A stretch of DNA of 64,000 nucleotides, taken from positions 5,766,001-5,830,000 of the forward strand of contig JBANAY010000001.1 of the NCBI GenBank assembly GCA_037952775.1, given 5' to 3'. The notes under the pieces are model-generated. The model made no database searches, was not told the DNA's origin, and worked only from the letters and a program-made list of their open reading frames with translations. Of the stretch, positions 1,251 through 34,600 are shown piece after piece. Each line of letters opens with the position of its first letter. The first letter of the stretch is position 1. Source of the DNA: Clonostachys chloroleuca (lineage: Eukaryota > Ascomycota > Sordariomycetes > Hypocreales > Bionectriaceae). The translations under genes and the position numbers were made by a program.

Positions 1251-4200
1251 ATGGAGCTTGCTGGCCTCGTGGTCGGCGTCGCCGGCCTCGCGGGGATCTT
1301 CAGCTCCTGTGTGGGAGCCATTGAGAGAGTACAGTCCTATCAGTCATACACCGCTGATTCCGGGGCTCTGGAGACGCGATTCAAGGTCTCCAAAGTCCGT
1401 TTCGAAGCGTGGGGTTCAGCTGTCGGGATAGAACAGGGCAGATTGCTAGCCGACCACCATCCTGGATTGGATGACCCAAGCAGAGCAGAGGTGATAGCCG
1501 AAACGCTGAAAATCATCCTGAAGGCCATATGCGATGAAAGTCAGAAGTCCCCGAAACAAACCCATCTGTTGAAGACTCACGACATTGCGATCCTGAGATC
1601 AAACGGCACTCATGCCTCGACATCATCCGAATCCAAGAAACGCAGAGTACAATGGGCACTCTGGGGTAAAGATGGTCGCATGGAAAAGGTTGAATTGTTT
1701 GAGAAGCTGGTGGACGGGTTGTACCACCTCGTGTCGCCTTCAGGAGGAGGGGAGATGATGAGCTCGCCGCCTCAATATGGAGACGAAAAAGTACCAGGTA
1801 CGGACCTCCACAGCCATTCACTATATTCACATCTAATCAAGGGAAGAACTCGACATACACAAAACTGGGCTTGATGATATACGGCGTATTCTTGTTCGCC
1901 GGGATAGCCAAATCAAAGGTAAGATGTGGCTCACTTGAGGGAGCATAAGGTTGAACTAACACCCGCGAAGCAAAGTTCCTTCGTGAACTCTATGTCTGGC
2001 TAGGTCACCTCTCTCCAACCGAGTTCTACCAAGAGGCCCTCCACAAGAAGGTCAATGGTACCTGCGACTGGTTCCTGCACCGGCCTGCCTTTTTGAACTG
2101 GTTGAACGCCTCTGCCTCTCGAAACCTGCTATGGGTTCATGCCCCTGCAGGATTTGGGAAAACCGTTCTCTGTGCTCGCATTGTAGACTATCTCTCATCC
2201 ACCGAAAGCACGCCCGTCGCGCACTTTTTCTTCTCATCCCAGAGTGAGGGTTCTAGGGATCCTTTCATTGCCATTAGATCCTGGGTTTCTCAGCTCGTAT
2301 CATGTGACTCAGGCGCAGATGCATTTGAAGACGTTCTTGGGATATGGGAGGCTGATCATGACCCAGTTGCATCGCGTTCTGCTGTCCTTGAACTCTTCAG
2401 AGAACTCCTTTCCACGATCTCCGATTGCATTCTTATTGCCGATGGCCTTGATGAATGCCTGGGATCCAATCAAGGAAACACAACTGTATCGAGCTTCATA
2501 CATCACGTCATAGATGCCGTAGGTAAGACGAATACCAGGGTTCTCTTTGTTAGCCGCGATGAACCTAGTATACGAACTGCCCTTGCGAGCTCGCCGGAGA
2601 CACTTACCGAATACAAGATCTCATCCACCGACGTCCAATCCGACACCGCTGCTTACTCTAATGAAATTGTCAAAAACATGCTTCCGAACAAGACCGACGA
2701 TGTTCGGTCAAGTCTTTCTGAAGCAATGGCTGCTCGGTGTGATGGCCAATTTCTCTGGCTCAAATTACAGGAGAAGTCTCTCAGAAAGGGACTGAACAAA
2801 AAGCAACTTCAGAATGTCATACAAAATACGCCCCCTGGGCTCGAGTATACGTATGACAAAAACTGGCACCGAATCACAAGTTTGCAACCAGATGACCAAT
2901 GCCGGGCCATCTCCATTCTGCGATGGCTGGTATCCGCTCTGCGTCCACTTACTGTCCAGGAAATTACTGAGGCTGTGCTCATCATGGACTCATGGGAGCT
3001 ATTATCGGAAGATTTGCCTGATGAAATAGACGATGACTATATTGAAAGTGAAATAATTGGTCTTTGTGGGACCCTCTTGGAAATCCGGAACTCCCCTGCC
3101 AACTCTGCACCGGCAGACCGAACTCTACACATACCACACTTTTCCGTGAGAGAGTACCTTCTATCGAAGCTACCCATTCCGTCATTCATCGGAGGCTATG
3201 AGTTCGTTGAGGAGTTCCTTAACGCAAATTGTGAGAAGCTTCATCATACACTGCTGGCGAGGGCCTGTGTCCAATATATAAGCCTCACTCAAGTCTGGGA
3301 CAACTCTCAATACCTATCCGATGACCCACTACCGAGCGCGGCGTTTCGAGAGTATGCTGCTACTCGATGGTACGAGCATGCAAGGTTGGGCGTGCCAGAT
3401 CACCCTTCTCTAGTCGCGCGTTGTTTCATGTTTTTCCATGAAGAGAATTCTGCTTGGGTTGGATGGAGAAACCTGTTCGAATTGGGCCGGAAAAGCAGAA
3501 AGAGAAACCGGGCTGAACGTGTCCTTCCAAGCCCACTCTTTTATGCGGTGAAGCTGGGTTTGGATAAACTGGCGGCTGGTTTAGCAACATGCACTGATGT
3601 CAACAGAGCAAGCAGCCACGGACGAACCCCTTTGGGTGCGGCCTGCTCTAAAGGGAATTTGAACATTGCTAAAAGACTTATCAAGCAAGGGGCCAAGGTT
3701 GATGCCGCGCCAGGCTCGAACGGGGTGACGCCGCTGCACAAAGCGTCAAAACATGGGTTCATCGAGCTTGTGAAATTTCTCCTCAGAGAGGGAGCTGATA
3801 TTCAGGCATTTGATGTATATGGATGGACTCCAATGGCATTAGCATCTATGCATGGTCATCTTGGCGTAATCATGCTCCTTCTAGATAACGGCGCTCCAGT
3901 TGAGGCTTGTACATCTGATGGCTCCAGTCCACTGATCTTGGCCTGCGCCAGAGGCCATTGTCATGTTGCGAAACTTTTGTTGGAGAGGGGTGCATCTATT
4001 TCCTCCGAGGGTCGATTGAAGGATAACCCTATGCATTTAGCTGCCTGTAATGGCCACCTCGAGGTTGTCAAACTCCTTCTGGAACATGAGGCTAGAGTTA
4101 TAGCTCCTATTAGTCAGGAGGGAGCTTTTGAAGGGTGTGAAGAAAGCGGCAACCCCCTCAGGGAAAACAAGCTGGAATTTCCAACAGAAACAATATTGTT

Positions 4201-5625
4201 GGTGATTCTCCTTTGACCTTAGCCGCCAGTAATGGCCACCTTCAAGTTGTGCGACTCCTCATAGAACACGGGGCTACAGTTGCAGCTACGGATAGACATC
4301 AAAGAACACCTTTGCATTTTGCCGCAGTTCTTGGCAATATTGAGATGGCAAGGCTCCTTCTGGATAAGGGAGCAGACACCACAGCCCGAGATTCTTCTGG
4401 TTGCACCCCATTATTATGTTCAGCAAAGAAGAATCATAGCGAAGTAGTTGGACTTCTCGTGGGTAGAGGAGCGTCTGTTGAGTCCGCGGATGAAGCTGGG
4501 GTGACTTCGCTGATGCATGCATCTGGACTTGGTCATATCGAAACTGTGAGAGTTCTTCTGGAACGAGGGGCTGGCATCGCGGCTACGAGTGACAACGGAG
4601 GGACTCCACTGATATTTGCATCCGAAGATGGCCACGTCGACGTGATGAGAATTATTCTTGACAGAGGAGCTGACATCGAAACGGCGGATAATGACGGGTG
4701 GACTTCACTGATGATTACTTCTCAAAATGGCCATACCGAAGCCGTCAAGATTCTCTTGGAACGAGGAGCCAATATTGAAGCTGTGGATGCCGTTGGGTGG
4801 ACTTCATTGATGCTTGCTTCCCAGAATTGCCATATCGAAATCATCGAGATTCTCCTAGAAAAAGGAGCTAATGTCGAGGCTTCGGACACGGACGGATGGA
4901 CTCCACTGTTAATCGCTTCCCGGCATGGTCATGCAGAAGCTCTTGAGCTGCTTTTAGATCATGGCTCCGATCCTGCTGTTGCGAACTCCCAGGGGGAAAC
5001 TGCACTGCATCTGGCATCCGAGCATGGCTTTGGCGAGATGATAAGCCTGCTTCTCAATACATCTGCTCTTATTTGCAATAAGCAGTATCAATGTGGTCGC
5101 ACGCCTCTGTTTCTGGCCTCTGTATATGGGCATGATCAAGCTGTGAAGACTTTGTTGTCAGATAGGAGAGTCGATCGAGAAATGAAGGACTGGCGCGGGT
5201 CGACCCCGTTATTTACTGCAGTGGCTAATGGCCACTACGAAACAACACAACTTCTGATCTCCGAGTCTACAAATTTAGAGAGTCAGAGTGGCAACAAACG
5301 GGATTTGCTGTGGTGGGCGCGACGTAGCGGAAGCCTACAAGTCGTTCAGAAGATTAAGGAGCATGCGCAAAAAATGGACAGGCCTTTTACCGATCAAGAA
5401 GGAGAATCTGCCGTGGAAATTGTTCCGTCCAAGCCGGAGACTGGTTTCTGTGATGCCTGTACTCTCAGTTTTTCAAGTGATGCCTCCTACGAATGTCTCC
5501 CGGATCACAATTTCGGGTTGTGTCAGGAGTGCTTTGACGAAGGTATTAGGTGCTCTAACTCGACACACGAAATGAAACTTAATGTCAGACCTTCAGATTC
5601 TGGTAATGGGTCTGATGATGGGTGA
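1251..5625 (+). CDS. HeLo-NACHT-ankyrin-ZZ protein (fungal NLR-like)
   Basis: Predicted signal-transducing NTPase of the kind linked to fungal non-self recognition and regulated cell death. Proposed exons are 1251-1797, 1847-1918, 1971-4134 and 4188-5625, about 1,406 residues. The N-terminus (about residues 1-200, starting MELAGLVVGVAGLAG) resembles the HeLo domain of HET-S-type proteins. A NACHT-like NTPase follows, with Walker A APAGFGKT near residue 265 and a Walker B-like ILIADGLDEC near 365. About 16 ankyrin repeats run from roughly residue 730 to 1340. A ZZ-like zinc finger (CDAC...CQEC) closes the protein, although one usual Cys ligand appears to be missing. Introns 1 and 2 restore a continuous reading frame. 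The third (4135-4187, GTGTGA...CAG) is weaker, and the frame change there could instead be a small indel. Family function is established knowledge; the role of this protein is inferred. Confidence 0.82.
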
Positions 5626-13891: not shown

Positions 13892-15970
13892 TCAAGACTT
13901 TTTTCCATGCAGGGCTTCCCCCAGTTCGTCCACCAAGTCGTAAATGTCAGTAGTTGGCCCCAGCAAAAGCGGAGTGGCACATACGACATGGGCCTCACCC
14001 AGGTCTACATGTCCTCGCAACATTTTCCCCGCCCATTTCAAAAGGCCTGTCAGATTAGGTCTTTGTTTAGGTCCGCCTTGCAGTTCCTTCTCGAAGGCGT
14101 CAGACTCCGGAATACGGTCGTATGCGATATACACAGGAAGAATGACGAATTCGCTGCCGGTAGACTGGAGACTGCGTAGAACGCCCCTCTTCCCTGGTAA
14201 TACATCCCCAGTGCGGCTTCGCTGCCCTTCGACAAAAAAGAGAAGATTGTCGCCGCCCCGCACAAGCTCGGCCAGTTGCTGATCAAGGCTGTCGTCCGGT
14301 TTGCCAGCCCCTCGCACGACGAACACGGTCCTCAGGCGGCGGCAAATCCATCCCACAATGGGTATTTTGGCGAATTCTTCGCTTGCAAGTACTCGCGGGA
14401 GCCGAATTCCCATCTCCGGTCGTGTGAAGAATAAGTAAGAGCAGACCAAGGAATCGAGAAAACTCCTATGGGTTGGCGCAACTATAACCCGCGTTTCAGG
14501 ATTGATACCTTCCATGGCCGCGGAAAATGAATGCTGGTCAAAGGTAACCGATGTAAATATTCTCTTAAATGTCCCTCGAAGAATAGTGGAAGAGATAGAA
14601 ACCGGTATTGTTCCATGTTCCTGTTTACTGGACCAATTTAATGTTCCGACGCCACCAGTGGTATCTGCTCGTTTTCCTGCAAAAACGGCTTTTGTGGCAT
14701 CTTTCTGCAGAAGGAAAATACGTACACCTTGACATACAATTTTCAGGTACTCGTAGGGGTCATAGTCTGGACCAAGTATGGTGGTTGTGGATTCGAAATT
14801 GTACGTGTGCTGCGTGAATGGCTCGAAGATGGTATTCGCTTTTAGCTCAGCGGCTTTAGCTCGTTCAATACGCTGTATCTGGCGATTATCGCGCTTAGCG
14901 ATGGCCAAAGTCTTCGCCAGTACTTGGGGAAGCTGGTGTTGAACAATATGACTAAGTCTGTATCGCAGATCCGTCTTTTGCCCGATGTAGGACATCTTCG
15001 GCTTTCGGAACACTTGATGAAGCGTGAAGTACTTGACAATCGCAGAACAAACGAGGGATATTTGCATTCCAGCTTCAAAGGTAGAGACGGCATGAACAAT
15101 CCGTGGTGGCCTTCCAAGTGTTGGAGGGCTGAGAACAGCTTCAATAAGTTGCTGTGCCACTACATCCACGGGAACTACGTCCAAGATGGTGCGAGGGTCA
15201 CCATTGGCGACTCTCATATTGCCTGATCCTATTCCAGCCACAATGCCGGCCAGGGCAGATGAACTATCAACCCACCCAGGGAAGGGATATCTCCAACTTG
15301 CGGAAATGATGCTGGGCCGGACAATAGTCAACGGCACAGCAACGCTTTCCAGAAGAAGATGCTCTGTGAGGCACTTGGCCAAAGTGTACAGGTTGGGATG
15401 CCCTGTAGATCGCAAGATTTCGTCGGTGCTGCTTGAATCTTTCTGAATTTCTGCGTATAGGCATCTTGCAGACTGGAACAGCGGCGGTAGCACTTCTATA
15501 ATAGACTTCTTGGTGTGCGGAGTGACATATGCTGTGGATGTATGAACAAAGTGTCGCAAGTTGGGACAGCCTCGGGCCAGTTCCATTACATTGAGAGTAG
15601 ATGTAATATTGTCGCCAAGAATGCTCGCAAAAGCTGATGGCGAAAATGCCACGGAGCCAGCACAATGAATGATGTGAGTTGTCTGAGAACAGAGCTGATT
15701 GTATATATCCTCTTCGATGCCACATCTCTCATGACGTAGATTAGCTGAGACAACATTGATCTTGGATACCCATGTTTTGGGTAATTTTGAAAAGCAGATA
15801 GAACCTGCTACTTCATCCAAGAATCTCCTCTCCGCTGTCTGGTTTTCTTTTGGGCGAATAAGCACGATAATCTTGTCCAATTTCCGGCCATTCTCACAAC
15901 GCAGAATTTCCTGAACGACAACTTTCCCAAGGAAACCAGTAGCGCCCGTGATCAATATAATGTGCCCCAT
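13892..15970 (-). CDS. Fatty acyl-CoA reductase fused to glycerone-phosphate (DHAP) acyltransferase
   Basis: Bifunctional enzyme expected to make both inputs of ether-lipid synthesis: a fatty alcohol (from acyl-CoA and NADPH) and acyl-DHAP. The protein is 692 residues, single exon. The N-terminal NAD(P)-binding reductase begins ITGATGFLGK (residues 7-16) and has an active-site YTLAK (195-199). A FAR-C 'sterile'-type segment with EPFTQHTYNFES follows near 383-394. The C-terminal acyltransferase has the HX4D motif HRSFLD (501-506) and EGQRSRTG (581-588). The PlsB/GNPAT-like ILPVYIAYDRIPES points to DHAP/G3P rather than lyso-PA acyltransferase. I recall a similar fused FAR/AT in Dictyostelium. 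No C-terminal SKL-type signal is present (ends GKKS). The gene lies downstream of and on the same strand as the alkyl-DHAP synthase. Domains are read directly; the pathway role is inferred. Confidence 0.88.
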   Translation of the reverse strand: MGHIILITGATGFLGKVVVQEILRCENGRKLDKIIVLIRPKENQTAERRFLDEVAGSICFSKLPKTWVSKINVVSANLRHERCGIEEDIYNQLCSQTTHIIHCAGSVAFSPSAFASILGDNITSTLNVMELARGCPNLRHFVHTSTAYVTPHTKKSIIEVLPPLFQSARCLYAEIQKDSSSTDEILRSTGHPNLYTLAKCLTEHLLLESVAVPLTIVRPSIISASWRYPFPGWVDSSSALAGIVAGIGSGNMRVANGDPRTILDVVPVDVVAQQLIEAVLSPPTLGRPPRIVHAVSTFEAGMQISLVCSAIVKYFTLHQVFRKPKMSYIGQKTDLRYRLSHIVQHQLPQVLAKTLAIAKRDNRQIQRIERAKAAELKANTIFEPFTQHTYNFESTTTILGPDYDPYEYLKIVCQGVRIFLLQKDATKAVFAGKRADTTGGVGTLNWSSKQEHGTIPVSISSTILRGTFKRIFTSVTFDQHSFSAAMEGINPETRVIVAPTHRSFLDSLVCSYLFFTRPEMGIRLPRVLASEEFAKIPIVGWICRRLRTVFVVRGAGKPDDSLDQQLAELVRGGDNLLFFVEGQRSRTGDVLPGKRGVLRSLQSTGSEFVILPVYIAYDRIPESDAFEKELQGGPKQRPNLTGLLKWAGKMLRGHVDLGEAHVVCATPLLLGPTTDIYDLVDELGEALHGKKS

Positions 15971-16481
15971 TGTGTCCTAGTGGCTTCTATAATTGAAATA
16001 AGAAAAGAAATAAGGAAAATGAAGTTCAGCATTCACAGGACTACGGCCATGTGAATAAATTGAAGCTGCCTCCAGCTAGAGTATTGAGTGCGAATTGGTT
16101 GCAGGCCCCCGGTACTGGAGACGGTAATATAACTTCCGTATTACACCCTTTTGACAGATTCGGGTCAGACACGGCATTTATTGCATTGAAGATTGGATCG
16201 TATATGTGTGAGCTGGATGTGCTGGCTGATAGATAAGCCATGATTCGCCACGCTAATGCCAAGTAATTTCAGCTGAACTGCACCGAAGGAATGATCCATT
16301 TTTATTAATGACTACAAATCCAGTAAGACGCTTATTGATTGGTATAAGCAGCAAACTAGCTCTGAAGAATGAATGTACAGTACATGCTTCAGCTCCACTT
16401 CAGGGGCACACGCCGTTGGAGCTATTCATTTCAAGCTCCTAATGCGAACAGAGACTCACTAAGCGAGCAGTAGCTTTGCAT
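15971..16481. promoter_or_regulatory. FAR-DHAPAT upstream region
   Basis: This 511-bp gap separates the FAR-DHAPAT start from the alkyl-DHAP synthase stop. It contains the 13-bp palindrome listed separately. A small minus-strand ORF (16262-16041) inside it has no recognisable features and is not called. Confidence 0.45.
16373..16385. promoter_or_regulatory. Palindrome ATGTACAGTACAT (copy 1)
   Basis: Perfect inverted repeat ATGTAC-A-GTACAT, about 400 bp upstream of the FAR-DHAPAT start. The identical 13-mer occurs at 18455-18467 in the promoter shared by the other two cluster genes. The symmetry suggests a dimeric DNA-binding regulator. Function is inferred. Confidence 0.5.
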
Positions 16482-18314
16482 CTACACATGTTCTAGGCCT
16501 GAAAGACCACCAGGGAATAGGCCGTCAGGGTCTTGAGCTACCTTGATCCGATGCAGCTGGCCAAGTGCGGTTGCCGATAGCAACCTTGGCAGATACTTCC
16601 GGCGTAGCATGCCAACTCCATGATGGTGTGAGAGCGATCCTCCGTTGAGTAAGATTTCGTCTCGGGCAGCTCCCTCCAAAGAGGAAAACTTCTCAGTGCC
16701 ACCCTTGATGTCATCACCCACAAATATTGCAAGATAGAAGTAGATGCAGACCCCCGTGTGGTAGACCTGGCTAATCCGAGAGCTGACAAACGGCTTTCCA
16801 GGAAGTCCAGAAGCAGAATGCTCTTCGAAGATTCGCTCTTTGACACGCTGACATATCTCTGGTGCGTCACTCCAAGCGCACGAAGTCTCAAAAGATTCGG
16901 CTAGAATGCCCAGTGTCATCGCAAAGTCGCGGATATAAGCAATAGCGAATGTCATGTCGTATCCACGCTCCCCGTTTGCAGAGCCTGCCTTCATTCCCCC
17001 ATGCTTTTTCAACAGTCGAGACACAGTAGCCTGCTGCGTGCCTACTTGCCTACTGCTCCCTTCGAACAATAATGTGCATGCGACCATCTGCTGTGGATCG
17101 AATTTTCGGATGCGAGTGACGTACGCCTTTTCGATGCGGCTCTTTAAAGCTCGTATTCCTGTTGTTGGAGGCTTGAGGGCCATGCTGAATTGGAACTGGG
17201 TGTTGTCAACGAGACGGACACTGGCTGGCAGCATATCGCCCGTTCTCGATAGATCATTCATGAATTGATACCCCGCTTCAAATGAAGGAAACAAGAGAGA
17301 TCCGTATTTTCTGACCTCCGGAAGATGAAACACCTTGACTACTGCCGACGTGATTATCCCCATCGCGCCTTCAGAGCCAAATACAAGATGCCTGATATCC
17401 ATGCGGGTAGATTGCCGAGGCCAGATATCGGTTCCGACATATTTGAACAAGCCATCAGGGGTAGCAACCTCGATATCTAACACAATGTCCTCGATGTTCC
17501 CGTAGCGGTTCTTCTTCATCCCGCTAGCTTTGGTAGCTATCCATCCACCAAGAGTAGAGAACTCGACGCTGTCTGGTTCATGGCCCAGTGTCATTCCACA
17601 TGCGGCCAAATCGGCAGTAATATGTCTACCCACAGCTCCAGCCTCTATGCAAGCAAGATTGTTCTCCTTATCAACCCACAGAATGCGGTTCATTCGTTTG
17701 GTGCTGACTGCTGCGATGGTACGTTGCTCCGTTTCTGAGCACGCCAGAGCTTGGCTAACATTTGTTCCTCCACCGAACGGGAGTATGCAAACACCTTTGT
17801 CTCTAGCGCATTGAACAATAGCCAAGGCCTGCTCCGTGCTCTCTGGGTACAGAACGAGGTCGGGGATGCGGTGAATAGAACCGCCGTAGTTCACCTGGCA
17901 CATGTCTTCGAGTGAGTGGCCATGGCAATGCCGTAGTCGCACTAATGGATCTTCGGAAATTTGGCTTTGATCCAAATGCTTCCCAATGGTGAGAAGAAAT
18001 TCCTCATTTCGAATCGGCGAGGGCAAATCTGCCTCTGTAGGGCGTCGAGGCTGGAGTTGCTCTCGTGGAACCTTCATCTGCATGATATTTTCCATCCATG
18101 GCAGCAGTGCAGGAAACTTCGATCCACTTGTTGAATAGCGAGTGCCGGAAATTTCCAAATGTCCATCTTTGCTGATCTGATACCGAGTGTCCGAGAAGCC
18201 CCAAGTGTGAGCATTCTCTTCACCATCATGACGGACTGGTCTTCCTTTGGGTACGACTCTGGTGTCTTGTTTCGGCAACTTCTCGCCGGGTTCACCCGTG
18301 GCTGAACCGGCCAT
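16482..18314 (-). CDS. Alkyldihydroxyacetonephosphate synthase (ether-lipid synthesis)
   Basis: FAD enzyme that swaps the acyl chain of 1-acyl-DHAP for a fatty alcohol, creating the ether bond of alkyl-DHAP. The protein is 610 residues, one exon. Similarity to animal AGPS runs nearly end to end. The FAD-binding (VAO/PCMH) domain has CILPFGGGTNVS, GHEPDSVEFSTLGGW, ASGMKKNRYGNIED and HLVFGSEGAMGIIT. The catalytic domain has SVRLVDNTQFQF (Arg counterpart), CIYFYLA (Tyr counterpart) and SLSHHHGVG (His cluster near 563-565). No PTS2 matching RLxxxxxHL is visible at the N-terminus, and the end (GLEHV) is not PTS1, so peroxisomal targeting is unproven. It is divergent from the aminotransferase gene across a 420-bp promoter with a TATA box. 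Confidence 0.93.
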   Translation of the reverse strand: MAGSATGEPGEKLPKQDTRVVPKGRPVRHDGEENAHTWGFSDTRYQISKDGHLEISGTRYSTSGSKFPALLPWMENIMQMKVPREQLQPRRPTEADLPSPIRNEEFLLTIGKHLDQSQISEDPLVRLRHCHGHSLEDMCQVNYGGSIHRIPDLVLYPESTEQALAIVQCARDKGVCILPFGGGTNVSQALACSETEQRTIAAVSTKRMNRILWVDKENNLACIEAGAVGRHITADLAACGMTLGHEPDSVEFSTLGGWIATKASGMKKNRYGNIEDIVLDIEVATPDGLFKYVGTDIWPRQSTRMDIRHLVFGSEGAMGIITSAVVKVFHLPEVRKYGSLLFPSFEAGYQFMNDLSRTGDMLPASVRLVDNTQFQFSMALKPPTTGIRALKSRIEKAYVTRIRKFDPQQMVACTLLFEGSSRQVGTQQATVSRLLKKHGGMKAGSANGERGYDMTFAIAYIRDFAMTLGILAESFETSCAWSDAPEICQRVKERIFEEHSASGLPGKPFVSSRISQVYHTGVCIYFYLAIFVGDDIKGGTEKFSSLEGAARDEILLNGGSLSHHHGVGMLRRKYLPRLLSATALGQLHRIKVAQDPDGLFPGGLSGLEHV

Positions 18315-18734
18315 GGTTTCCTTTTGTCTTCAGATGTTATGGTTATAGAGCAATCCACTCCGAGAAGCATCCTACTTTATATATCATGTCTAGCTCCTGT
18401 CCGTCCTCCACCAACCCCGTTTTCAGCCCTGAACTTGTCAACAAGAACACCCCGATGTACAGTACATCCCACAAAGTCCAGGGGACCCCGGTCATCCAGA
18501 AGAGCACATTTGCATGGAGATGCAGTGGAGACACCCAATAGTGGCTCCGCCGTTTGCCACTCATCGATTCGCTTAGAGCTCTTGCGTATCACGATAAACA
18601 AGTGCCTAAGGGCCTTGCAGGGTAGCTATTCGGAGGCGGTGTGGAATTTTCAATACGCCATCTGCGAGATTTGGAACTCGACCTCTCGCGCCAAATCTAC
18701 CGCATCTCGTCACACACCGGGACAGCTCACCACC
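18315..18734. promoter_or_regulatory. Bidirectional promoter, alkyl-DHAP synthase / aminotransferase
   Basis: The 420 bp lies between the two divergent starts. On the minus strand TATATAAAG (18383-18375) lies about 60 nt before the synthase ATG and is a good TATA box. The region also holds the palindrome at 18455-18467. Confidence 0.6.
18455..18467. promoter_or_regulatory. Palindrome ATGTACAGTACAT (copy 2)
   Basis: Identical to the 13-mer at 16373-16385. Here the symmetry extends one base further on each side (G...C). It sits between the divergent starts and could serve both genes. Confidence 0.5.
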
Positions 18735-20024
18735 ATGGCGATGCTACCCCAGGGCATCTACGCCCGCAAGTTATTCGACATAACCTGGGCAGATGTGTTC
18801 CGCGGGGTCTATTACTCCCTGGCGTCGGGGTTCTCCAGCGCCCATGACCAGGAGGAGGCCATCGAGAATCTTGAAGAGCTATGGGCCCCGACGCAGACTC
18901 TCGTGACCATGAGCGTGCGATCGGCTTTTGATTTATTTCTGCAAGCATGCGAATTTCCACCGGGCAGCGAAATTCTCATCTCGGCCGTGACCATCCCCCA
19001 CATGGTTTCCATCATCCGTCTTCACGGCCTAGTCCCAGTACCAATCGACCTCCAACCAGATGCGACCGTATCAGTCGAGGACGTGCTGCCATTAATACGG
19101 CCTCAAACTACAGCCATCCTCGTGGCCCATCTCTTCGGGCAGCGCCAATCCTTAGCTGCTCTGGGTGAGCTCGCACAGCATCACAATCTAATGCTCATAG
19201 AAGACTGTGCCCAAGCGTTCTGCGGGCTGGATTTCAAGGGCAGTCCCGAGGCTTCCGTCTCCATGTTCAGTTTCGGACCAATCAAGACCAACACTTCCCT
19301 CGCAGGTGGTATTGCGACTGTGCGAGTCCCACAGCTCCTCGATGCCATGAGAGGGATACAGTCTGGCTATGCCAACTATCGAGATACCGACTATCTCAAG
19401 AGGATACTCAAATATGCCGCATTCAAGGCAGTCGTCTCAAGCCCTCTCTGCTACGGTGGGTTGATATCCATTCTACAACGAAGAGGCATAAATCACCATC
19501 AGTTCATCACCAGAGCAAGTCACAGCCTAGCCAGCGGTGATTTCCTGCAGCAAATCCGCCTCAGTCCATCGCCGGGCCTTGTTCGACTACTGAATCACCG
19601 AATCTCACACTTCGATGCCTCAGCGCTTGAGCGACGTGCTTCGCGGATTGCAGACATCGTTGATATGCTACCCCCATCCATGCAGCCCATCGGCTACAAT
19701 GCTTCATTGAGGGGCAAGCGTTCGAATCACCACTACTGGCTCTGCCCTATACGTGTGCAAAATCCGGACGTTGTTTTAGGTGATCTATTATGTGCTGGAT
19801 TTGATGCTGCAGCTGGCAATGCAACCCTCATCGTTGTTCCGGGACAAGAGTATCCCAGTGCGAAGGGTGATGATGACGAAGGCAGCGTCTCAGAGGCCTC
19901 AAAAGCGAAAAGTATGATGGAAGATGTGATTTACTTGCCCGTCGACAACCATTTCGATCAACTCGCTACCAAGAGACTGATCAACACACTCGCCAATGTA
20001 GAAAGTCGGGTTCAGAAAGCTTGA
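18735..20024 (+). CDS. DegT/DnrJ/EryC1/StrS-family PLP aminotransferase
   Basis: Predicted PLP-dependent transaminase of the family that aminates ketones on sugars and sugar nucleotides. I start it at 18735 (CACCATGG context, MAMLPQGIY), giving 429 residues. The frame is open upstream to 18324, but that part overlaps the divergent promoter and has no domain. The cofactor-binding aspartate lies in LIEDCAQAF (Asp about residue 157). The PLP-Schiff-base lysine lies in FSFGPIKTNTSLAGG (Lys about 184). The fold-type I layout and the C-terminal YLPVDNHF also fit. It is intron-free and divergent from alkyl-DHAP synthase. Given the neighbours, a plausible substrate is the ketone of alkyl-DHAP, giving a 2-amino ether lipid precursor. 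That is inference. Some family members are dehydratases or have lost catalysis, but the lysine is present here. Confidence 0.82.
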   Translation: MAMLPQGIYARKLFDITWADVFRGVYYSLASGFSSAHDQEEAIENLEELWAPTQTLVTMSVRSAFDLFLQACEFPPGSEILISAVTIPHMVSIIRLHGLVPVPIDLQPDATVSVEDVLPLIRPQTTAILVAHLFGQRQSLAALGELAQHHNLMLIEDCAQAFCGLDFKGSPEASVSMFSFGPIKTNTSLAGGIATVRVPQLLDAMRGIQSGYANYRDTDYLKRILKYAAFKAVVSSPLCYGGLISILQRRGINHHQFITRASHSLASGDFLQQIRLSPSPGLVRLLNHRISHFDASALERRASRIADIVDMLPPSMQPIGYNASLRGKRSNHHYWLCPIRVQNPDVVLGDLLCAGFDAAAGNATLIVVPGQEYPSAKGDDDEGSVSEASKAKSMMEDVIYLPVDNHFDQLATKRLINTLANVESRVQKA

Positions 20025-20188: not shown

Positions 20189-23100
20189 CTACGCTGACTC
20201 TTCGTCAACGTCTTGATATTGTGACTGGACCGTTCTTGCCCGTTGAGCAGAAACAGCCCTCCTCTCTCTGATTACTGTCAATGTCCCGGCCAGTACCACC
20301 AAACATGTTTGTACAGTAGCGAAAACTGGTATACTCAGGATCGTGGTTTTGTCCGAGGATATCAATGTGGCCGAAATGAGCCTCCCAGCTCCCCATGCAG
20401 CGATCGACACACAGAGCAAGCCGAAGGCCTGGACCAAAGTGTCCATTTCATCAAGAATAATTACCCAAATAACTGAAAAGATGCGTAAATTAGCAAATTG
20501 GGTTCATGATGACACGAGCGCGGTAAGATTGAGGTATACTTACGTGGAAGAATAAGCAAATGCAGTCGAACAGGCACTATAAGTGATCAGTCATGATGAA
20601 TCAGAGAGCCTCACGAGTAGGACTTACGGAAAATTCCAACAATGGAGCAGAAAATCATTGACATATCTACAATAAACATCAGTAGCTGGATTCTGGAGAG
20701 AACGGGAACCTTTCCAACTAACAGAGCAGCCCTGGTAGATAGCGTGGCAAAATCTGGCTCGCCAAAATCGAAACCACAACAACCGCGGATCCCGGTAGGA
20801 GTTCCAAGAAGTGGTATAGAGGATAATGAGGAGCGTTAGAAAATATGGTCCCACTTAAAAACGCTATGATTGTGATAACTGTAGAATAAAGGACCATAAG
20901 AGGCCATGAAGATCCCTATGTTTATTGATTAGCGAACTGAAACAGGAGATATGTTCGAAGGCAACTAACTGATGTTTTCAGCCACTTTGGCCTCTCTCCG
21001 TTAATATATTTAGAAATAGCCGAAGAAGAGACAGTAACCATCCTTTCCGGTACATCTAGGGAGGGCGAATCTTGAGGCAAGCTCAGATGTGAGGAATAAA
21101 CCGTCGTCAAGACAAGGATCATGACAGAAATTGTAACATCCAGAAGGTGGTTGAGATAAAGCCGATCGTAAAGCTTGACGAATAAGCTCGCCGCACGAAA
21201 GATCTCGTTAGCCAGAACGGCCCAAGCTAGGATCTGCCATACCGCCTTCTTTTTGGAGAACCATGCCCAATGGTAGAACACCAAGCCAGCTATCGCGATG
21301 CCTATGGCAGCCCCATGCAATAACTGCAACATCAACCACAAAGGCAACATCAACCACGGTGGAAAGTTGCAGTGGCGGTTGGTCATATTCTGAAAGAAAT
21401 ACAACATCTCTAGAATAACGGATCGGGAACATTAGCCTCCACCAAGTAATATTAAGTCAGTCAGAACTTACCGCTACTGTATAAAGCCGGTGCTGTGATT
21501 TGTAACAAAACGCCTCTGCGAAAACAGACGAATGCAGCTAATTGAGCAAGTAAAATTCCAGAAAAATACGCGATACACGAATAAAAATTCTCATTTGAGA
21601 AGGACGTGTGAGAACTGAATATTTGTGTAGCGGTCTGCCAGTAATTGTTAGCCATCTAGTGATAAACTGGACAGTGCCGACCTACCACCATAATCAGAAG
21701 ATTCAGACTCCAGGGTTTGGATTTTAGTTTCGCGCTTTCTGTTATTCTGGAAACGATGCCGAGCCCATGGCCACTGGCTTCACCATCGGTCTCTGACACA
21801 GCCGTTGATGTTGAGGATGGACCGAGCGGGGTTAGGCACAAATGCAATGACCCTGTACGATGCATCAGACCGCTCATCAACGGGTCAACACGTAAGACTT
21901 TCTCGCGGTGATAAGAGCCCGTCTTGCAGTTGAAAGAGCACAAAAGGGCCCGATCAGTTCCTCCCACTTGCCCACACACGACGATGGCTACTGGAGGTGC
22001 TGTGCACCGCACCACAGTCATCGTAAGCGTTGTTGTATCGACCATGGTGAAGATCTGACCGGTGCCTTCTTTGCGGAATGTGCCCAGATTTCCACTCTGC
22101 TCGTCATCCGCAACTATCTTCTTCAGCCTCCCATGATTGAATCCCCAAATATATCGTTCGACAGTTGCAGTATCGACAGCCCCTTGAATTCCAATGACCC
22201 GGCTTTTTTCTTTATTTGCACAATAAGGTATCCCAAAAAACATGAAGGTGAAAGGGAACACAAGAGAACACACAAGAACCACCGCAGCTGATACATAGAT
22301 CAAGATAGCAAACAAGAACATTGAGTTCCTACCGTATGGGATGATGTGTGTTATCCACAGCCAGCACGGAAGGCATATCCATGCAATGTTGAAGGCCACG
22401 AGGAGTGGAGTTCTAAACCTCATGCCAGAATACTTTAGAGACGTAGAACGCTCGATTTTGTCCCAACTGATGGGCGTGGCGTAGACGTCTTGGATCACAA
22501 GGGCATCCGAATTTGTGACATCTAGTACGTGGCACGCTGGACGGAAATCTCTCAACCTCGAGCCCCAATAGTCCGATGTGTCTGACCATGGGGAGCCAGC
22601 GTGCAGCGGACCAAGGCACATCATCCGCGAGAGGATATTCCCGTCGTCAATTGCCAGGGCGAGCCGGGCAAAAGCCCTGAAACCAGAATCATTCTGGTCA
22701 ATCTGCGGTCTTTGGCTGTCTGGAAACAATCCCATAATGGCGTAGGCGACGTCTCCGGCACTGAACTGATCGGTTTTGCGACGTGCGAAGCACTCCAAGG
22801 CAATTTCAATCAGCTGTCGCGGTGTGAGGATTGCAGAAGCTTCATAGTGGTTAACCAGCTCCTTGACAGACTCCGCATCCTCCCACGCCCGTTCGGCAAA
22901 GTTTCGTTTCGCCAGCTCTTTAGGCTCCTTGGACTCGCCAAAGGCGTACAGTTTGATGCGATACTCGTTGGGGCAGAGGAGCAGCTCCGGCAATGTCCAG
23001 AGACGAGAGCCCCATTGTCGAAGCCACTGTGATGAATGTTCCGTATTGAACATCTTGGACGATCTGCTATCGTCGCCACGCAACAGATTCTTGATTTTGT

Positions 23101-24185
23101 CTTCAGCTGATGGTCCAATCGCGATTATCATAGAATGGGCCGCTCGGACAATATCGCAGATCCGATAGACGTCTTCGCTTTTGCTGCTTGACCGGGCCAC
23201 GCCATCAGAGTCGCGCACACACTCAAAGTCAAGCCAGAATGCTGGCTTGCCTGCGGCCAAAGCCGCATCCACGCCCCAGCGTGCAAGAGTCTCGCGGTCG
23301 CTCTTGGCCAATTTGCGGTTGGCATCTCGCGTTTCCTCATCTGGATACTCATATGCATCGATTTCCTCGTCGGTAGCCACTCTAAATTGCATTCGCGTGT
23401 AGGAAACAAAGATGAACTCGGTATCTGCTTGATCGCCATGCTCGTGGATGTAATCTGACACAGAAATGGTACGATATGGCGTCTCCTCGGAGCCTGTTAA
23501 AAAGCAGAGATATCTTGGCCGTAGGGAGAGCCCCCTGGTTGAGACCGGGCTTGGAATGTAGTGTGACTTCTAACGATAGGGGAGTCGGGATTCTCAGATG
23601 GGACCTGCTGCCCGCCCAATTGAATATTGGCTGAGAAGGTGGCCGCCGTGGACAGGTTCTCCTCTATGGACGATGAATGTGAAAGGGCCGTTGACAATCT
23701 ATCGTAAAAGAGCTCATACTTCAGACTGTCCGCTTCAAGAGCGTTTTTTCGGGTTCCATTCCAAGAAATCAAAGCTGGTACTCCATTTGTCCAACTAGGT
23801 AGCTACGCGTAGGGAGTTAGGAAGCGCACAAGCAATTAAGTGATATCAAATAACCTACCACAAAGCTTGTGAAGGGGGCTACAACAACCAGCCTCAAAAA
23901 CACGAGTGAAGCCGACCCGGGTGTTAACCGTCGATTTTCGGTTCCTTCCACCAGAACAGGCGATAGTATCCAATACCAGGTAGCCTGCAGCGTAGGGACA
24001 CGGGATGCAGGCATTCCCAGGCTTGTCCATGCTTGATTCTCGGGGATTTCAGGTCCGTATCGCAGGCTCTGGACAGCCAGAGGAACGAGGCTTCCATTTT
24101 CAGGATGCGGGTAATGAAGATGGCCGCAGTTTTCGTCTAAGGCGCTGGGCGCAGGCTGCTGTTGCTGTTGTGTAGACGCCGACAT
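20189..24185 (-). CDS. HET-like domain protein with polytopic membrane C-terminus
   Basis: Large membrane protein of unknown function, about 1,175-1,200 residues. Exons are 24185-23859, 23802-21686, 21634-21472, 21409-20970, 20915-20723, 20666-20628, 20576-20544 and 20472-20189. The middle contains a HET-like region: FVSYTRMQFR, AFWLDFECVRD, DVYRICDIVRAAHSMIIAIG, then RLWTLPELLL, matching the spacing of heterokaryon-incompatibility domains. Two membrane segments follow at about 22245-22385 (LLVAFNIAWICLPCWLW; MFLFAILIYVSAAVVLVCS), and about eight more lie in the last exons. The 51-nt intron 21685-21635 has GTAGGT, a GCTAACA branch and CAG, and joins what would otherwise look like two genes (a stop directly abutting an ATG at 21656/21655). 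A frame change at about 23530-23600 is unresolved: a poor intron (GTCACA...AACAG, 74 nt) or an indel. It is convergent with the aminotransferase gene. Confidence 0.65.
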
Positions 24186-27089: not shown

Positions 27090-30000
27090 TCATCCCAGGT
27101 GAGTGCTCTCTGGCGGACCAAGTGAGGTCTGCCGATACCCTCCTACATCAACCACCAACCGTTGTACAACAACACCGGGCTCAAGAAGCCAGAGGTCCAG
27201 TGTGTGCGAACCGCTCGGGAGTTCTATCGTGCTCGCGGAAGTCCAGCCGCCAGCAATTACGGCCTCGGTCCAACCAGAAGGTTCCGAGCCCATCGGCGTG
27301 GTCGGTACAGGCTGGACAATGACCGGGGCGCCTCCATCTATGGAAAAGGCATACCGCAACACTCGGCTGGGGTCGTGATTCAGTGTCGCACCTAGGAAGA
27401 CCATTAGTTGAGGCTTCTCAACCTCCGTGAAAGTATGGAACGTGTATGTGAGCTTCGGCGCCGTGTCTGGGGATTGAGAGTCGGCAGTGACAGGCCAGGT
27501 CTTGACTCCCGACAAAGTTCGCCCGTAATGTGGGACTACCACGTAAGATAATCCATTCTTCTCCTCAATCTTGCTGTAGTGCTCAGCTTCGATAGCAACA
27601 ACTCCACCAGACTCTACATAACCACTGAAGCCAGATGGAACAGAGCGCTTATTGACAGGTAGGTTAAAGGTGATGGGCCAACTGCCGGGCGCATTCGAGG
27701 GTGTGACTTTCAGGCCAACTTCTGTTGACCCGGCTGGAGCTGCGTTCCAGTCTACTTTGATAATGCTTCGGACATCAGAAATGTTTTCCGATGTGCTTAG
27801 CGTCCCAGCCGAATTCGAAATTGTGACATATGTTTCGCTGCTGGTAATGCTGTAGGAAAATGTCCCGTTGTTACGAGTGAATATGTCAAGATAACGCTGC
27901 TCCGAACTGGGCATGTATGGATCCATGGGTAGCAGAGCTGGCACTGGATCGCCCGGGAAAGAGAAGTTACTTCCCTGAACAGACACACCCATGATACCAG
28001 ACTTGGGTACGTTGTCCTCCCCATGGTATACAAGTGGAGGGAGAGTGTTCTCCGCGGGCTCCTGCCAGTTGTCGTAGCCAATATGAGTTTGCGTCATCAT
28101 GCGATCCCATTTTCCGTCCTTGAGCGAGTGGTACCTGCTCGTGATTGCTTGATCTTCAAGGAACAGGTTCTGCACATCAGTAGCTAGTTGGTTAGTGCTC
28201 GTACGGCGCTGACGATGGCGCCAGAGGTTCAGCTCAGCTTTGATGTATAGCTCAACCACGGTCTTGCCTGCGAGGACCGGGTGCAGCACCATTTCAAAGA
28301 ACGGCGTGCGTGTCGATTGTGGTAGACTATCGTAGGTGCTCTGTGCAAGATCGAGCAGGTCTGTCCACTCAGCCAAAACGGCCTCGGCTTCGTCGTAGTA
28401 TGCTACGCTATAGGCAAACGGCTTTCGACTGAGGAGCTCGTACTTCCGGCGTAAGATTAGCTTGCCATACGTGCTCAAGATCTTTACGGTCCGTTCGGCG
28501 ATTTTTTCTTCAAATTCGGCTGCGGCCCATCGATGGATCCACCTGGTTGTGCTATCGGGGTCAGCATGGCTGGACATGTCGTATGCCATGTCTAGGAAAT
28601 GGGAAGTCGGGATTTCCTACATTTCAATATATTAGTATCGGATCAAGAATATAATGTCATGTTGAAGCATGTAGTGCTCATGCGGAGCTAGATTGTCTCC
28701 CTTACCAAAGGCTTGATGTCTCCAATGTTGGCAATCCAAATCTCACGAGCACCCTTCTCATATGCCAGCTGCATTTGCTCCCAAGTCTTTACCAACTGGA
28801 TGGTATTGATCCATTTGTAGTTCCGTGGCGCACCGACGTAGTCAAAATGATAGTAAACACCAGCACCACCTTCTCGGTTGGTCTCATTGGCCAATGGTGT
28901 TCGAAGCAGATTGCCCGCGTTATCATCCGTCCAGAGCAGAGTGACCGTTTCAGGGACTTTCATGCCTGACTGATAATATCGGCCTACTTCCTATTGAGGA
29001 ATTAGGCCTGCCAGGAAAGAGAAGTGTCTATACAGAAGCTGCTCGATAGACTTACCTTGTAAAGTACCCACGTTTGAGGGATGTCTGTCAGATTCTCATT
29101 CAAGATGTCTTCCAAAAGAGATTGCTGTACACTGATGATTTCAACCAGCGAGTCAGCAGTCAAAGTGGGCGAAGCAGCATCTCCAGATCCCCTCATGCCA
29201 AGAGTATACATGGTCTCCCAATTCTTAGCACGCTCCACGCCGCCTTCAAAGAATTTGGTGATCTCCTCTTTGTTGTCGATCCAATCCCAATTCCCCTCAA
29301 CCTCCCGCTGTTGCTCCCTTTCCGACCGGGCCATCGGCTCATGGTGGCTCGTACCGACGACAACACCGTACTCGTCGGCTAGCCTGCCATTCGCTTCATC
29401 ATCGACGTAGAAGGCGCTCCCCCACATAGCTGGCCATATGTAGTTCGCCCGAAGCCGGAGACATAGTTCAAACACTAACTTGTAGAATTCGCTATTGAAT
29501 GGTCGACCGCTCGGTGTCAGCCCAAAGTTTTTCTCTGCCCATCCTGTTAAGGCAGGCGCTTCATCGTTGATAAAGAAGCCCCGATATTTTATGGAGGGAG
29601 GCCCTTGAACTTTCCGCGCATTGCGAGCCCAGATGCCAGTCTTAGTCTTGGGCGGCACATCTGCCCACCAATGCCACGGCGAAACTCCAATCGTTTGGGA
29701 AATATCGTACAGACCGTACACTGTTCCCCTCCTATCGCTCCCAGCAACGACAAGGGCCCAAGGGATACTAGATGTCACGTCCTCGACGAGAACTGTGGTA
29801 TAGGACTCCCATTTGCCATCAATTTCGGAAACGTCGATTTTGCCGGCGTCAACCAACTTGTCGATGAGAGTAGAATGGCCGACAGTTCCTGCAATAATGA
29901 TGGGTGTAGTGCCATTTCGAGAACCCGGGTGCTGGTCGAATTCTTTGAGCGTACCATTAACGCCGACAACCCGGCCAAAGTCTAGAGCGAGATCTCGTGC

Positions 30001-30174
30001 AGTGCGTGTAATGGCTCGGAAATCGCCAGAAGAGATCCAAATTTCCGGGGCCGTGCTTGTATCAGCCAGCTTATATTCGCTGATGCCATCTTGAAAGGCG
30101 AGTAGATCTTGCTGAGCTAACGTCAAGCCCAAAAGAAAGCCAACCACTGCTATGAGGCGTGGGATGAACACCAT
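27090..30174 (-). CDS. Secreted GH115 xylan alpha-1,2-glucuronidase
   Basis: Predicted extracellular enzyme removing (4-O-methyl-)glucuronic acid side chains from xylan. Exons are 30174-29056, 28990-28706 and 28616-27090, all phase 0, giving 976 residues, the expected size of the family. The N-terminus MVFIPRLIAVVGFLLGLTLAQ is a clear signal peptide. GH115-type segments include TVYGLYDISQTIGVSPWHWWADV, KYRGFFINDEAPALTGW, LRANYIWPAMWGSAFYVDD and VTLLWTDDNAGNLLR. A C-terminal beta-rich domain with VAIEAEHYSK completes the fold. The second intron has a good branch site (ATACTAAT). It is intact, with no neighbour of the same pathway. The family assignment is strong; exact substrate is inferred. 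Confidence 0.9.
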
Positions 30175-31694: not shown

Positions 31695-34600
31695 TCAGTT
31701 GTCCGCACCAGAGCCCTCAGACTGGGATGATGAACGGACGTGGTGAAGGTTCTTTCGTCGTACGATAGAGCTACTAAACAGTTAGTTGATGGTTGTCCAA
31801 GGATCGAGAGAAACAAGAAATCGGAACAAACTTACATTCCGCGTGAGCCTTCTCGAGGGCAGCGCACAATCACAATCTCATTGTCGCGCTTAGATTTGCG
31901 GTCACTCTTGGTCCGACCTCTAGTCCCGGTACTTTCCTTGGAGCCAAGCTGGGCAGTCAGATCGGTCACCTTCTTCTTGAGGGCCGAGACCTGGTTGCTG
32001 GCAGCCTGGTGCGCCTGCTTCTCCGTCTCCAGCTGGCCCTTGACCTCCTCCAGCTTGGCGGCGAGCGTGCCGTTCTCGACTCGCAGGTTAGGCACAGCCT
32101 CGGCCTCCTTTTCGGCCTCGGCCAGCTTCGTGCACAAGTTGTCTCGCTCGCTCGTCAGGGCGTCGACCGCGGCCGCTTTCTCCTGGAGTTCGGTGTTGCG
32201 CGTCAGGAGCTCCGTGTTGCGCTCCTGGAGGGTCACGACGAGGACCACGTTGGGGTCGACTACTTGCTCTGCTTTTTCTTCTTCGGGGGCGGGCTCTTGC
32301 TCTTGGGCTTTTTCTTCTCCTTGTCCGCCTTCTTCTGGGGCGGCGGCTTCTGGGGCTGGGGCTGCGGTTGCTGGCTCCGGGTCAGCATTTGGTCCGTCCT
32401 CAGTCTTTGGCTCTTCTGCTGGCGGAGGCGCCTCGGCAGGCTGCTCGGGGGCTGGGTCTGCGTTTACCTCGGCGGCGGGAGCGACGCCGCTCTCCTTTGG
32501 TGTCTCGGCTTCAGCTGGGGCTGGCTCGGGGGCTGGGGCTGGCTCTGCTGCTGGTTCTGGTGCAGGCTCGGGTGCCGGTTCAGGTGCCGGTTCTTCTGCT
32601 GGCTCAGGGGCGGGCTCAGGGGCAGGCTCGGGTACGTCTTCTGGCACGTCTTCAACCGTTACGGGCTCGGGTACGACTTCAGCCGTGACGGTCTCGGGCG
32701 CCTTCTCGGTCATTTCAGAAATGATGGTGGCCGCATCGTCGTCTCTGCTCACGGTAGAGGCGGTGTCGCTCGCGATGGAGGGGGCACTGCTCTGGGGCAG
32801 GCTGAAAATGCTGGATGCTGCATCGGAGGAGGCACGGAGGGACTCATTCTCCTCGCGAAGGCCGTCACACTCGGCTGAGAGGCGCAGGACACGGGATGAG
32901 GTATCGTCCTGCTCCTTGAGGAGGTCTTGGACCTGAACGCGAAGGCTCTTGCCCTCGGTGCTCATGAGCTCGGCCTTGTTCTTGAGCTTGCGGTACTTGA
33001 CCTCAACCTCCCCAGCCTTGATCTCAGCGGTGTCTTTCTCCTTCTGAAGCTTCTCGATCTGAGACTTGAGAGCATTCATTGTTCTCGCTATTAAGTTTAG
33101 TCAAGTCGCCCTCCTTGGCCTCTAGCAGCTTCTTATGCTCGGCCTCGTTGGCCTCCAGCTGCTTCTTGTGGTCATCAAGGGCTGTCTGGAGCTCCTTGAC
33201 CTTGTCGTCAAGTGCCTGCTTCTCGGCCTTGAGACCATCCACCTGTTTCAGCAGCTCCTCCTTCTCCTTCTCAAGTTTCTCAGCTCGGCTCTCCAGACCC
33301 TTGACCTCCTTCTCCATGGTCCGGATCTGGTTCTCCAGGCTCTTGACCTGCTTCTCAAGAGGATCAACCTTTGTGCGGATGTCGCTCTTGAGACCATCAC
33401 GCTCGGCGGTGAGTTCGCCCAGCTCGGTGGCGCTCTTGAGCAAGTCGCCCTCGAGACCCTTGACGCGGAGGTTCACGGCATCGAGAGACATCTCGAGAGT
33501 CGCAATCTGCGCAACGTAGGAAGTCTCCTGCGCCTTCCTGATGGCCTTGACATCGCTGAGCTCGCGCTCGAGATTGATCGTCTTGGCGTCAATCTCCTTG
33601 TGGAAGGTCACCTGCTGCTTGCTCTCCTTCTCAAGCACGTTGCACTTGTTGCTCATGATGTCGCTGAGCTCCTTGTACTTGTGCAGGTTGGCCTCGGCCT
33701 CCTTGAGCTTGCTCTCGATGGACCTCTCGGACCCGGCGAGGTCGTCGCGCTCCTTCTTGATGGTCCTGAGGGCGGCATCGTAGTCCTTGCGGAGCTTCTC
33801 CTGGGTGGCGTCCCAGTCCTTTTGCGCCTTCTTGAGCGCCTCAGCGTGCTCTTTCTTGGTCTTCTCCAGCCTCGAGTCGCGCTCCTTCTCGATCTTCTCA
33901 AAGGCCTTCTTCTGCTCCTCGGCCTTGGTCTGGACCTTGTCGAGCTGGCGGGCCCTGTTGTCCAGGTCGCTCGTCAGCTTGTCCTTGGACTGCTGGAGCC
34001 TGTTGCGCTCGGAGCGCAGGTCATCCTTGTCCTTCTGGAGGTTGGTGTTGTCCTTTTGGAGGTTGGAGTTGTCCTTCTGGAGGTTGGCGTTGTCCTTTTC
34101 GAGGCTGACCGTCTTCTGCCGCAGGTCCTGGAGGTCCCGGTCAGAGGAGGACTGCTTCTCTTTGAGAAGGTTCAGCTCCTTGCGCAGGCTCTCGAGCTCC
34201 CAGACGTTGTCTGCTGGCTCCTGGTAGGGCACCACATGCTGCTGGTGGACAGCAGGCTGTTGCTGAATGGGAGCTTGCTGGTGGTAGGTGAGAGCCTCTG
34301 GAACACGCTGGGTGATGAGGGGAGGAGCTGATGCAGGGACAGCTTGGTGAGTGACCAGAGGTACTTGAGGGGCAATTGGCGGAGATTGCACCTTGGGCTC
34401 AATGTGAATGTGGATGTTGCGAGTGCCCTGGTTCGAGTTTTGCGTTTGAACCTGGACCTGGGACTCACTGTGACTGTTCTCAGACCGTCGGCCAGGTCGT
34501 TCCCTGCTGACGCTCTGGCGACGGGAAGATGTGGAAGTGCTGACATTCTGCCTCGACTGCCTTGAGTCTACAACTGCGCTGGTACGCTTCTTGCTAGGAG

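Follow-up and report, generated by a model that had tools for sequence, protein, structure and literature searches.

The three-gene locus

The genome of the ascomycete Clonostachys chloroleuca (59.4 Mb, four contigs) contains, within the stretch of 64,000 nucleotides analysed here (C1:5766001-5830000, hereafter the window), a 6.1 kb span of three intact, intron-free genes, FAR-AT, AGPS and DegT, all of which are open from end to end. They encode a fatty acyl-CoA reductase (FAR) fused to an acyltransferase, an alkyl-dihydroxyacetone phosphate (alkyl-DHAP) synthase, and an aminotransferase dependent on pyridoxal 5'-phosphate (PLP), and may together form a pathway to an aminated ether lipid. The features of the span, in window coordinates, are:

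13892..15970, minus strand: FAR-AT, FAR fused to an acyltransferase of the DHAP/glycerol 3-phosphate type, 692 aa (Pfam, NCBIfam, PDB, motifs)
15971..16481: spacer of 511 bp from the AGPS stop to the FAR-AT start, the two genes lying in tandem on the same strand (sequence)
16482..18314, minus strand: AGPS, alkyl-DHAP (alkylglycerone-phosphate) synthase, 610 aa (PDB 4bby, Pfam)
18315..18734: divergent intergenic region of 420 bp, from the AGPS start codon to the DegT start codon (sequence)
18735..20024, plus strand: DegT/DnrJ/EryC1/StrS-fold PLP aminotransferase, 429 aa (PF01041; K184, D157)

A preliminary description of this DNA had placed three intact, adjacent and intron-free genes here, as the open frames and domain matches bear out, and had named them as a FAR–DHAP acyltransferase fusion, an alkyl-DHAP synthase and a DegT enzyme, in agreement with the Pfam and PDB matches. 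Judged from their sequences, chance matches do not explain any of the three identities.

In the mechanical list of open reading frames (ORFs), DegT begins at a TTG at 18324, inside the divergent intergenic region. The ATG at 18735 (CACCATGG context), giving 429 aa, is the more likely start because a 96%-similar protein of C. solani (95% identity) begins at the identical residue. The 420 bp upstream would therefore be a divergent intergenic region, and possibly a promoter shared by AGPS and DegT. For none of the three genes did a search of the 59.4 Mb genome find another close copy. The next-best matches are 27-35% identical for AGPS, covering part of the protein only, and 26-33% identical for FAR-AT, covering one domain only, and the sole other DegT match is 28% identical. 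Proteins of Bionectria ochroleuca are 91% identical to FAR-AT and 95% to AGPS; Clonostachys is the newer name of Bionectria.

The encoded proteins

FAR-AT combines a FAR domain and an acyltransferase of the glycerol-3-phosphate/DHAP acyltransferase (GPAT/DHAPAT) type within one chain, with Pfam matches to NAD_binding_4 (E 2.2e-57, residues 7-274) and Acyltransferase (E 1.3e-20, residues 487-615). It also matches PlsB in NCBIfam, below the cut-off, and the GPAT structures 9vuq and 8e4y in PDB, and carries the motifs TGATGFLG, YTLAK, HRSFLD and EGQRSR, which we take to be functionally meaningful. With 692 aa it is shorter than many relatives, which often have about 770 or 900 aa; the protein of Conoideocrella (901 aa) and many other longer relatives bear a C-terminal extension of about 200 residues that is absent from the window protein. 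A search of the window for a remnant of this extension gave no significant match (best E 0.80). The possibility of a truncated gene was rejected, and the window protein is regarded as a complete short form, because the versions of Paramyrothecium (696 aa) and of two other Clonostachys/Bionectria (692 aa) are equally short. Together with its fungal homologues (P0121-P0124), it forms one clade of five amid proteins that are bacterial where named, the placement of the long Conoideocrella row being less sure; the closest named relatives beyond the fungal group are bacterial among the matches listed.

The AGPS protein resembles the AGPS structure 4bby_A over its full length (E 5.2e-147, residues 5-600), as well as 2uuu (E 1.8e-84, residues 98-596), which is named alkyldihydroxyacetonephosphate synthase and is presumably a Dictyostelium protein. 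Its Pfam domains are FAD_binding_4 and FAD-oxidase_C. The 4bby residues H300, D303, R419, R515 and Y578 and the HHH loop, all of which we take to have catalytic roles, are identical in the aligned window protein, and the motifs GHEPDS, CIYFY and HHH are present. Here too, the closest named relatives beyond the fungal group are bacteria among the matches listed.

DegT belongs to the DegT family by its match to PF01041 (E 3.5e-26), its full DegT fold and its retention of the PLP lysine K184 together with D157. A lysine at this position of the fold marks transaminases, whereas dehydrases carry a histidine. The Pfam match is limited to profile positions 40-200 of 360, none of the eight listed NCBIfam models reaches its cut-off (best 57.1 bits against 631 needed), and the best phmmer match does not cover residues 211-328 (429-aa numbering), the second of its segments not being significant. 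As far as such alignments go, the likeness to sugar aminotransferases lies mainly in the cofactor half. ArnB, GDP-perosamine synthase and DesV, which are enzymes of the DegT/DnrJ/EryC1/StrS group, share 13-22% identity with the window protein and differ from it in a divergent C-terminal half; neighbours of their sugar-pathway type were not seen at the window DegT. An assignment as nucleotide-sugar aminotransferase was therefore rejected as improbable, the curated cut-offs being missed and no sugar-pathway neighbour seen. No hydrophobic membrane segment was found in the protein, the highest mean hydropathy over 19 residues being 1.29. Among the matches listed, its closest named relatives beyond the fungal group are oomycetes and bacteria, and viral contigs hold 18 distant matches (25-36% identity).

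Linkage and co-divergence in fungi

Homologue searches returned 2,559 matches for DegT, 1,576 for FAR-AT and 4,392 for AGPS, and the best 120 per gene were compared. Genes were counted as sharing a contig when their listed matches had contigs of equal size in bp and the same source, with one contig considered per 90% cluster. About one chance match is expected per such comparison, and a DegT/FAR-AT match in size (8,767 bp) was discarded since the sources differ. One FAR-AT entry (P0189, 16,924 bp) was compared by eye and agrees in size with no contig of the DegT or AGPS lists. Intron-split or diverged FAR-AT genes would escape this count.

Linkage of DegT and AGPS is conserved across fungal genera. 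Among the matches listed, at least nine pairs beyond the window lie on one contig. In Conoideocrella luteorostrata, a contig of 56,105 bp carries DegT (P0035), AGPS (P0314) and FAR-AT (P0124) under the consecutive tags QQS21_010334, 010335 and 010336, in the same order as in the window. Paramyrothecium foliicola has all three genes on one 8.0 Mb contig, and Xylariales sp. PMI_506 has DegT and AGPS on one 2.4 Mb contig. Six further DegT-AGPS contigs measure 4,167 to 50,915 bp, including 9,416 and 10,605 bp, the smallest leaving space for little beyond the two genes.

The fungal-clade DegTs, 27 in number, form one clade (SH-aLRT support 100) next to a mainly cyanobacterial group (moderate support, 88). 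Beyond the window protein it has six named members, all of them from fungi (Clonostachys, Paramyrothecium, Conoideocrella, Xylariales sp., Thozetella and Chlorociboria), and the remaining ones are assumed to be fungal from their position in the tree. Seven of the 27 have their longest contig below 4 kb; among the other 20, at least 10, the window included, share a contig with AGPS. The preliminary description had proposed looking for the genes side by side in other genomes and had named a lack of co-occurrence in related ones as a refutation; the cluster survived this check, both by the consecutive tags in Conoideocrella and by this proportion of AGPS-linked DegTs.

AGPS-linked DegTs occur in both subclades of the fungal clade and are as little as about 42% identical to each other. 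In a quick tree, a branch with support 99 sets all ten of their AGPS partners apart, together with seven more rows for which linkage is not shown; Clonostachys/Bionectria account for two of the seven. The DegT and AGPS distance matrices of the 10 pairs are correlated (Mantel r = 0.79), with none of 20,000 permutations as high. All three trees (DegT, AGPS and FAR-AT) were built by a quick method with SH-aLRT as the only support measure; those of AGPS and FAR-AT were flagged for long branches, including P0314 and P0124 of Conoideocrella.

A predicted route to an amino ether lipid

From the chemistry of their families, FAR-AT would reduce acyl-CoA to a fatty alcohol and also acylate DHAP, and AGPS would then put the fatty alcohol in place of the acyl chain to give 1-O-alkyl-DHAP. 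The gene linkage, together with a precedent described below, suggests that DegT, charged as pyridoxamine 5'-phosphate by glutamate or another amino acid, may transaminate the C2 ketone of alkyl-DHAP. The predicted product, 1-O-alkyl-2-amino-2-deoxyglycerol 3-phosphate, would be an ether analogue of sphinganine-1-phosphate: phosphate, amine and long chain would be laid out alike, but an ether oxygen would be present and the 3-hydroxyl missing. Housekeeping enzymes of sphingolipid metabolism could then remove the phosphate and acylate the amine. This is the most economical reading, because AGPS yields one ketone and DegT-fold enzymes aminate ketones; we consider the chances that the three genes form such a pathway, with DegT aminating alkyl-DHAP at C2, to be about evenly balanced.

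The precedent is the N-terminal domain of RtxA from the rhizobitoxine pathway, which transaminates the C2 ketone of glycerone phosphate (free DHAP) to amino-propanediol phosphate (serinol phosphate), according to the accessible part of PMC3222319. Unlike the proposed reaction, that of RtxA uses free DHAP and involves no lipid, and the enzyme is not described there as a member of the DegT family (PMC3222319).

DegT might instead act on the fatty aldehyde from FAR, or on acyl-DHAP, to yield a fatty amine or an acyl amino-glycerol phosphate. FAR reactions do go via an aldehyde, and acyl-DHAP carries a C2 ketone as alkyl-DHAP does. However, the DegT link is most widespread with AGPS, not with FAR-AT (nine against two shared contigs of the same source, among the matches listed), and aminating DHAP or acyl-DHAP ahead of AGPS would delete the ketone that AGPS chemistry, as we understand it, requires. 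Such earlier action of DegT appears quite improbable.

Another alternative is that the locus serves ordinary ether lipids, with a housekeeping Ayr1-type reductase making alkyl-glycerol phosphate and DegT aminating a separate small ketone or sugar as a head group. DegT-fold enzymes of known structure are mostly sugar aminotransferases, and PMC13256971 gives the reductase step as usual in other eukaryotes, with yeast ayr1 assigned to alkyl-DHAP reduction. This alternative is nevertheless unlikely: no glycosyltransferase or nucleotide-sugar gene was found among the 13 flanking ORFs tested, no such family is present in the 25 commonest of the 119 Pfam families from 69 genes adjacent to bacterial DegTs on the same strand, and DegT differs from sugar aminotransferases in its substrate half.

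If alkyl-DHAP is made and aminated as proposed, the first steps would parallel a known system. In Dictyostelium and Tetrahymena, FARAT likewise holds FAR and acyltransferase in one chain, and AGPS follows to give alkyl-DHAP, as stated in PMC7375469 and PMC13256971. There, alkyl-DHAP is next reduced, whereas the window adds an aminotransferase. Dictyostelium FARAT is peroxisomal via SKL; in contrast, the examined fungal proteins lack such a C-terminal peroxisomal targeting signal (PTS1). The window FAR-AT ends in KKS, with the pattern in none of five fungal FAR-ATs, and no PTS1 was found in 17 fungal-clade AGPS proteins or at the C-termini of the DegTs examined (window, P0001-P0027, P0035). The N-terminal signal PTS2 was sought in the first 60 residues with a coarse pattern; it was not found in the window AGPS and occurs in 1 of its 16 fungal-clade homologues (P0246), hence in 1/17 with the window protein counted. 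These results suggest a location of the putative pathway different from the peroxisomal one of Dictyostelium.

Bacterial relatives and weighing of the proposal

Prokaryote genomes were scanned for DegT and the 80 best loci (29-41% identity) examined, many of them with short flanks cut by contig ends. A FAD_binding_4-type oxidoreductase, which is not AGPS, lies beside DegT or is fused to it in 13 of the 80. Four are fusions (L064, L075, L079, L090) and nine are adjacent within 153 bp (L033, L035, L040, L052, L068, L069, L070, L081, L092), the partner being on the opposite strand in L052 and L069. The search for these partners used a profile of five members, all five of which Pfam confirmed; three partners were compared further and are similar to lactone oxidases and DprE1, with scores that stay under the curated cut-offs. 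The FAD-paired DegTs come from Acidobacteria, Planctomycetes and Sphingobacteriaceae and occupy four distinct regions of the tree, and the pair looks like an alcohol-to-ketone-to-amine module.

The FAD domain is also the commonest among the 69 adjacent same-strand genes (5), followed by short-chain dehydrogenases (4) and glutathione S-transferases (4), while PlsY and PF01553 acyltransferases occur twice each (2/69). A hydroxylase resembling OlsC/LpxO (Asp_Arg_Hydrox cluster; Pfam checked on two) is found near DegT in 5 of the 80 loci, adjoining it in L059, L061, L067 and L072 and one gene off in L084, which may hint at aminolipids. The recurrent FAD partners and the lipid genes near some loci speak for the proposal, but genes for GMP synthase, DNA ligase and adenylate cyclase are among other, unrelated neighbours, and the neighbourhood link of bacterial DegT to lipids is therefore suggestive only. 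The contigs of L091 and L094 are titled as a metagenome-assembled genome (MAG) of Bordetella parapertussis; their DegTs group with uncultured Betaproteobacteria, which makes the species label doubtful.

In a Deltaproteobacteria MAG that also carries a DegT locus (L041), AGPS and FAR lie on one strand at a separate locus (L119), with matches 45 bp apart, paired as in the window. Unlike in the window, no DegT stands beside this pair, and L119 stops before the acyltransferase part, so that a FAR-AT fusion is not seen there. At least four more AGPS/FAR-AT pairs share a contig among the matches listed, one of them named Deltaproteobacteria.

Several observations weigh against amination of alkyl-DHAP by DegT. 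AGPS or FAR-AT at E 1e-5 was found in the fetched flanks of none of the 80 bacterial DegT loci, the best AGPS match there (6.7e-4) lying in the FAD portion of the L090 fusion. An AGPS-like match at E 1e-40 was present in 5 of 50 genomes with a bacterial DegT, one at 49% identity. Most bacterial DegTs must thus use another substrate source, since AGPS is rare in those genomes and unlinked, and an ancestral tie of DegT to AGPS was rejected on the 0/80 count. The FAD partner, too, is absent in close relatives of some FAD-paired DegTs, namely L056 and L095 beside L070, and L049, L085 and L097 in Sphingobacteriaceae. Within fungi, 10 of the 20 fungal-clade DegTs have no AGPS partner among the matches listed (best 120 of 4,392), and the shared contigs of Paramyrothecium (8.0 Mb) and Xylariales PMI_506 (2.4 Mb) show presence on the same chromosome or scaffold, not adjacency. 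The linkage of all three genes put forward in the preliminary description recurs for DegT and AGPS, whereas FAR-AT is linked beyond the window in two genera only, Conoideocrella and Paramyrothecium (among the matches listed). Species history by itself could account for part of the co-divergence of DegT and AGPS. Reductases of the Ayr1 type are present in fungi and could turn alkyl-DHAP into ordinary ether lipid, so that amination might run in parallel with the reductase step and not replace it, as the preliminary description had supposed; no reductase gene was recognised beside the cluster among the ORFs tested, and housekeeping Ayr1-type genes were not searched for. Product and activity are predicted from the genes.

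The three genes could also be neighbours without a common function, bacterial-type genes acquired together and linked through their shared history, with DegT unrelated to ether lipids. The bacterial relatives of FAR-AT and AGPS, the oomycete and bacterial relatives of DegT (nearest named non-fungal proteins among the matches listed) and the patchy fungal spread would suit such an origin. The linkage persists, however, between DegTs about 42% identical and in both fungal subclades, and bacterial AGPS adjoins FAR in L119, yet neither gene was found at any of the 80 DegT loci. We hold a neighbourhood of this kind to be decidedly unlikely. DegT looks like an addition that was retained, because the bacterial AGPS-FAR pair exists without it. 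In the simplest history, a DegT and a FAR-AT/AGPS pair, both of bacterial origin, would have been joined in fungi and then kept patchily; few named fungi are among the matches listed, and the distribution looks patchy.

The interpretation offered in the preliminary description, that DegT aminates alkyl-DHAP, stands in part: the aminotransferase travels with ether-lipid genes and RtxA sets a precedent for DHAP transamination, but the bacterial relatives examined are unlinked to AGPS. A wider reading, which we rate at somewhat below an even chance, is that some ascomycetes make a phospho-amino ether lipid from DHAP and not from serine, that an alkyl-DHAP aminotransferase would be a new activity, and that this DegT subfamily would be a general module for turning lipid ketones into amines.

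No description of an alkyl-DHAP aminotransferase or an amino ether lipid pathway was found among the titles and opening lines of abstracts listed from the open-access literature, and other print may differ; within this scope, the earlier remark of knowing no described pathway of this kind still holds. The serinolipids of ascidians (didemniserinolipids) are natural 2-amino-propanediol ethers from an animal source and are not known to carry phosphate, and we know of no gene cluster for them. Clonostachys is a genus used for biological control, and the predicted product, if real, would be a new natural-product class from it, and its synthesis would be another way to sphingoid-like amino lipids, one that does without serine palmitoyltransferase. 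Fungi are described as largely without ether lipids in PMC13256971; a recurrent fungal cluster with alkyl-DHAP enzymes argues against their absence in some lineages.

Neighbouring genes in the window

Thirteen flanking ORFs (up to 34.4 kb) were compared with Pfam, a test limited to ORFs, so that intron-split genes may be missed. Three have no Pfam match. As members of the pathway, the ankyrin/NACHT, HeLo, hydroxyisobutyrate-dehydrogenase-like, catalase, molybdopterin oxidoreductase, GH115 and coiled-coil ORFs were set aside, having no obvious link to it.

A HeLo-domain ORF and, after it, NACHT/ankyrin ORFs at 1251-5625 may make up an NLR-like gene of the fungal kind. An ORF of 601 aa at 21656-23461 has no Pfam match at E 0.001. 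Two same-strand ORFs at 27090-30174 correspond to the C-terminal and N-terminal parts of a GH115 glycoside hydrolase, separated by an intron or a break. Long overlapping ORFs on both strands, GC-rich and with weak coiled-coil matches, occupy 31740-34391, and a strong AT skew (-0.415) is present at 32-34 kb.

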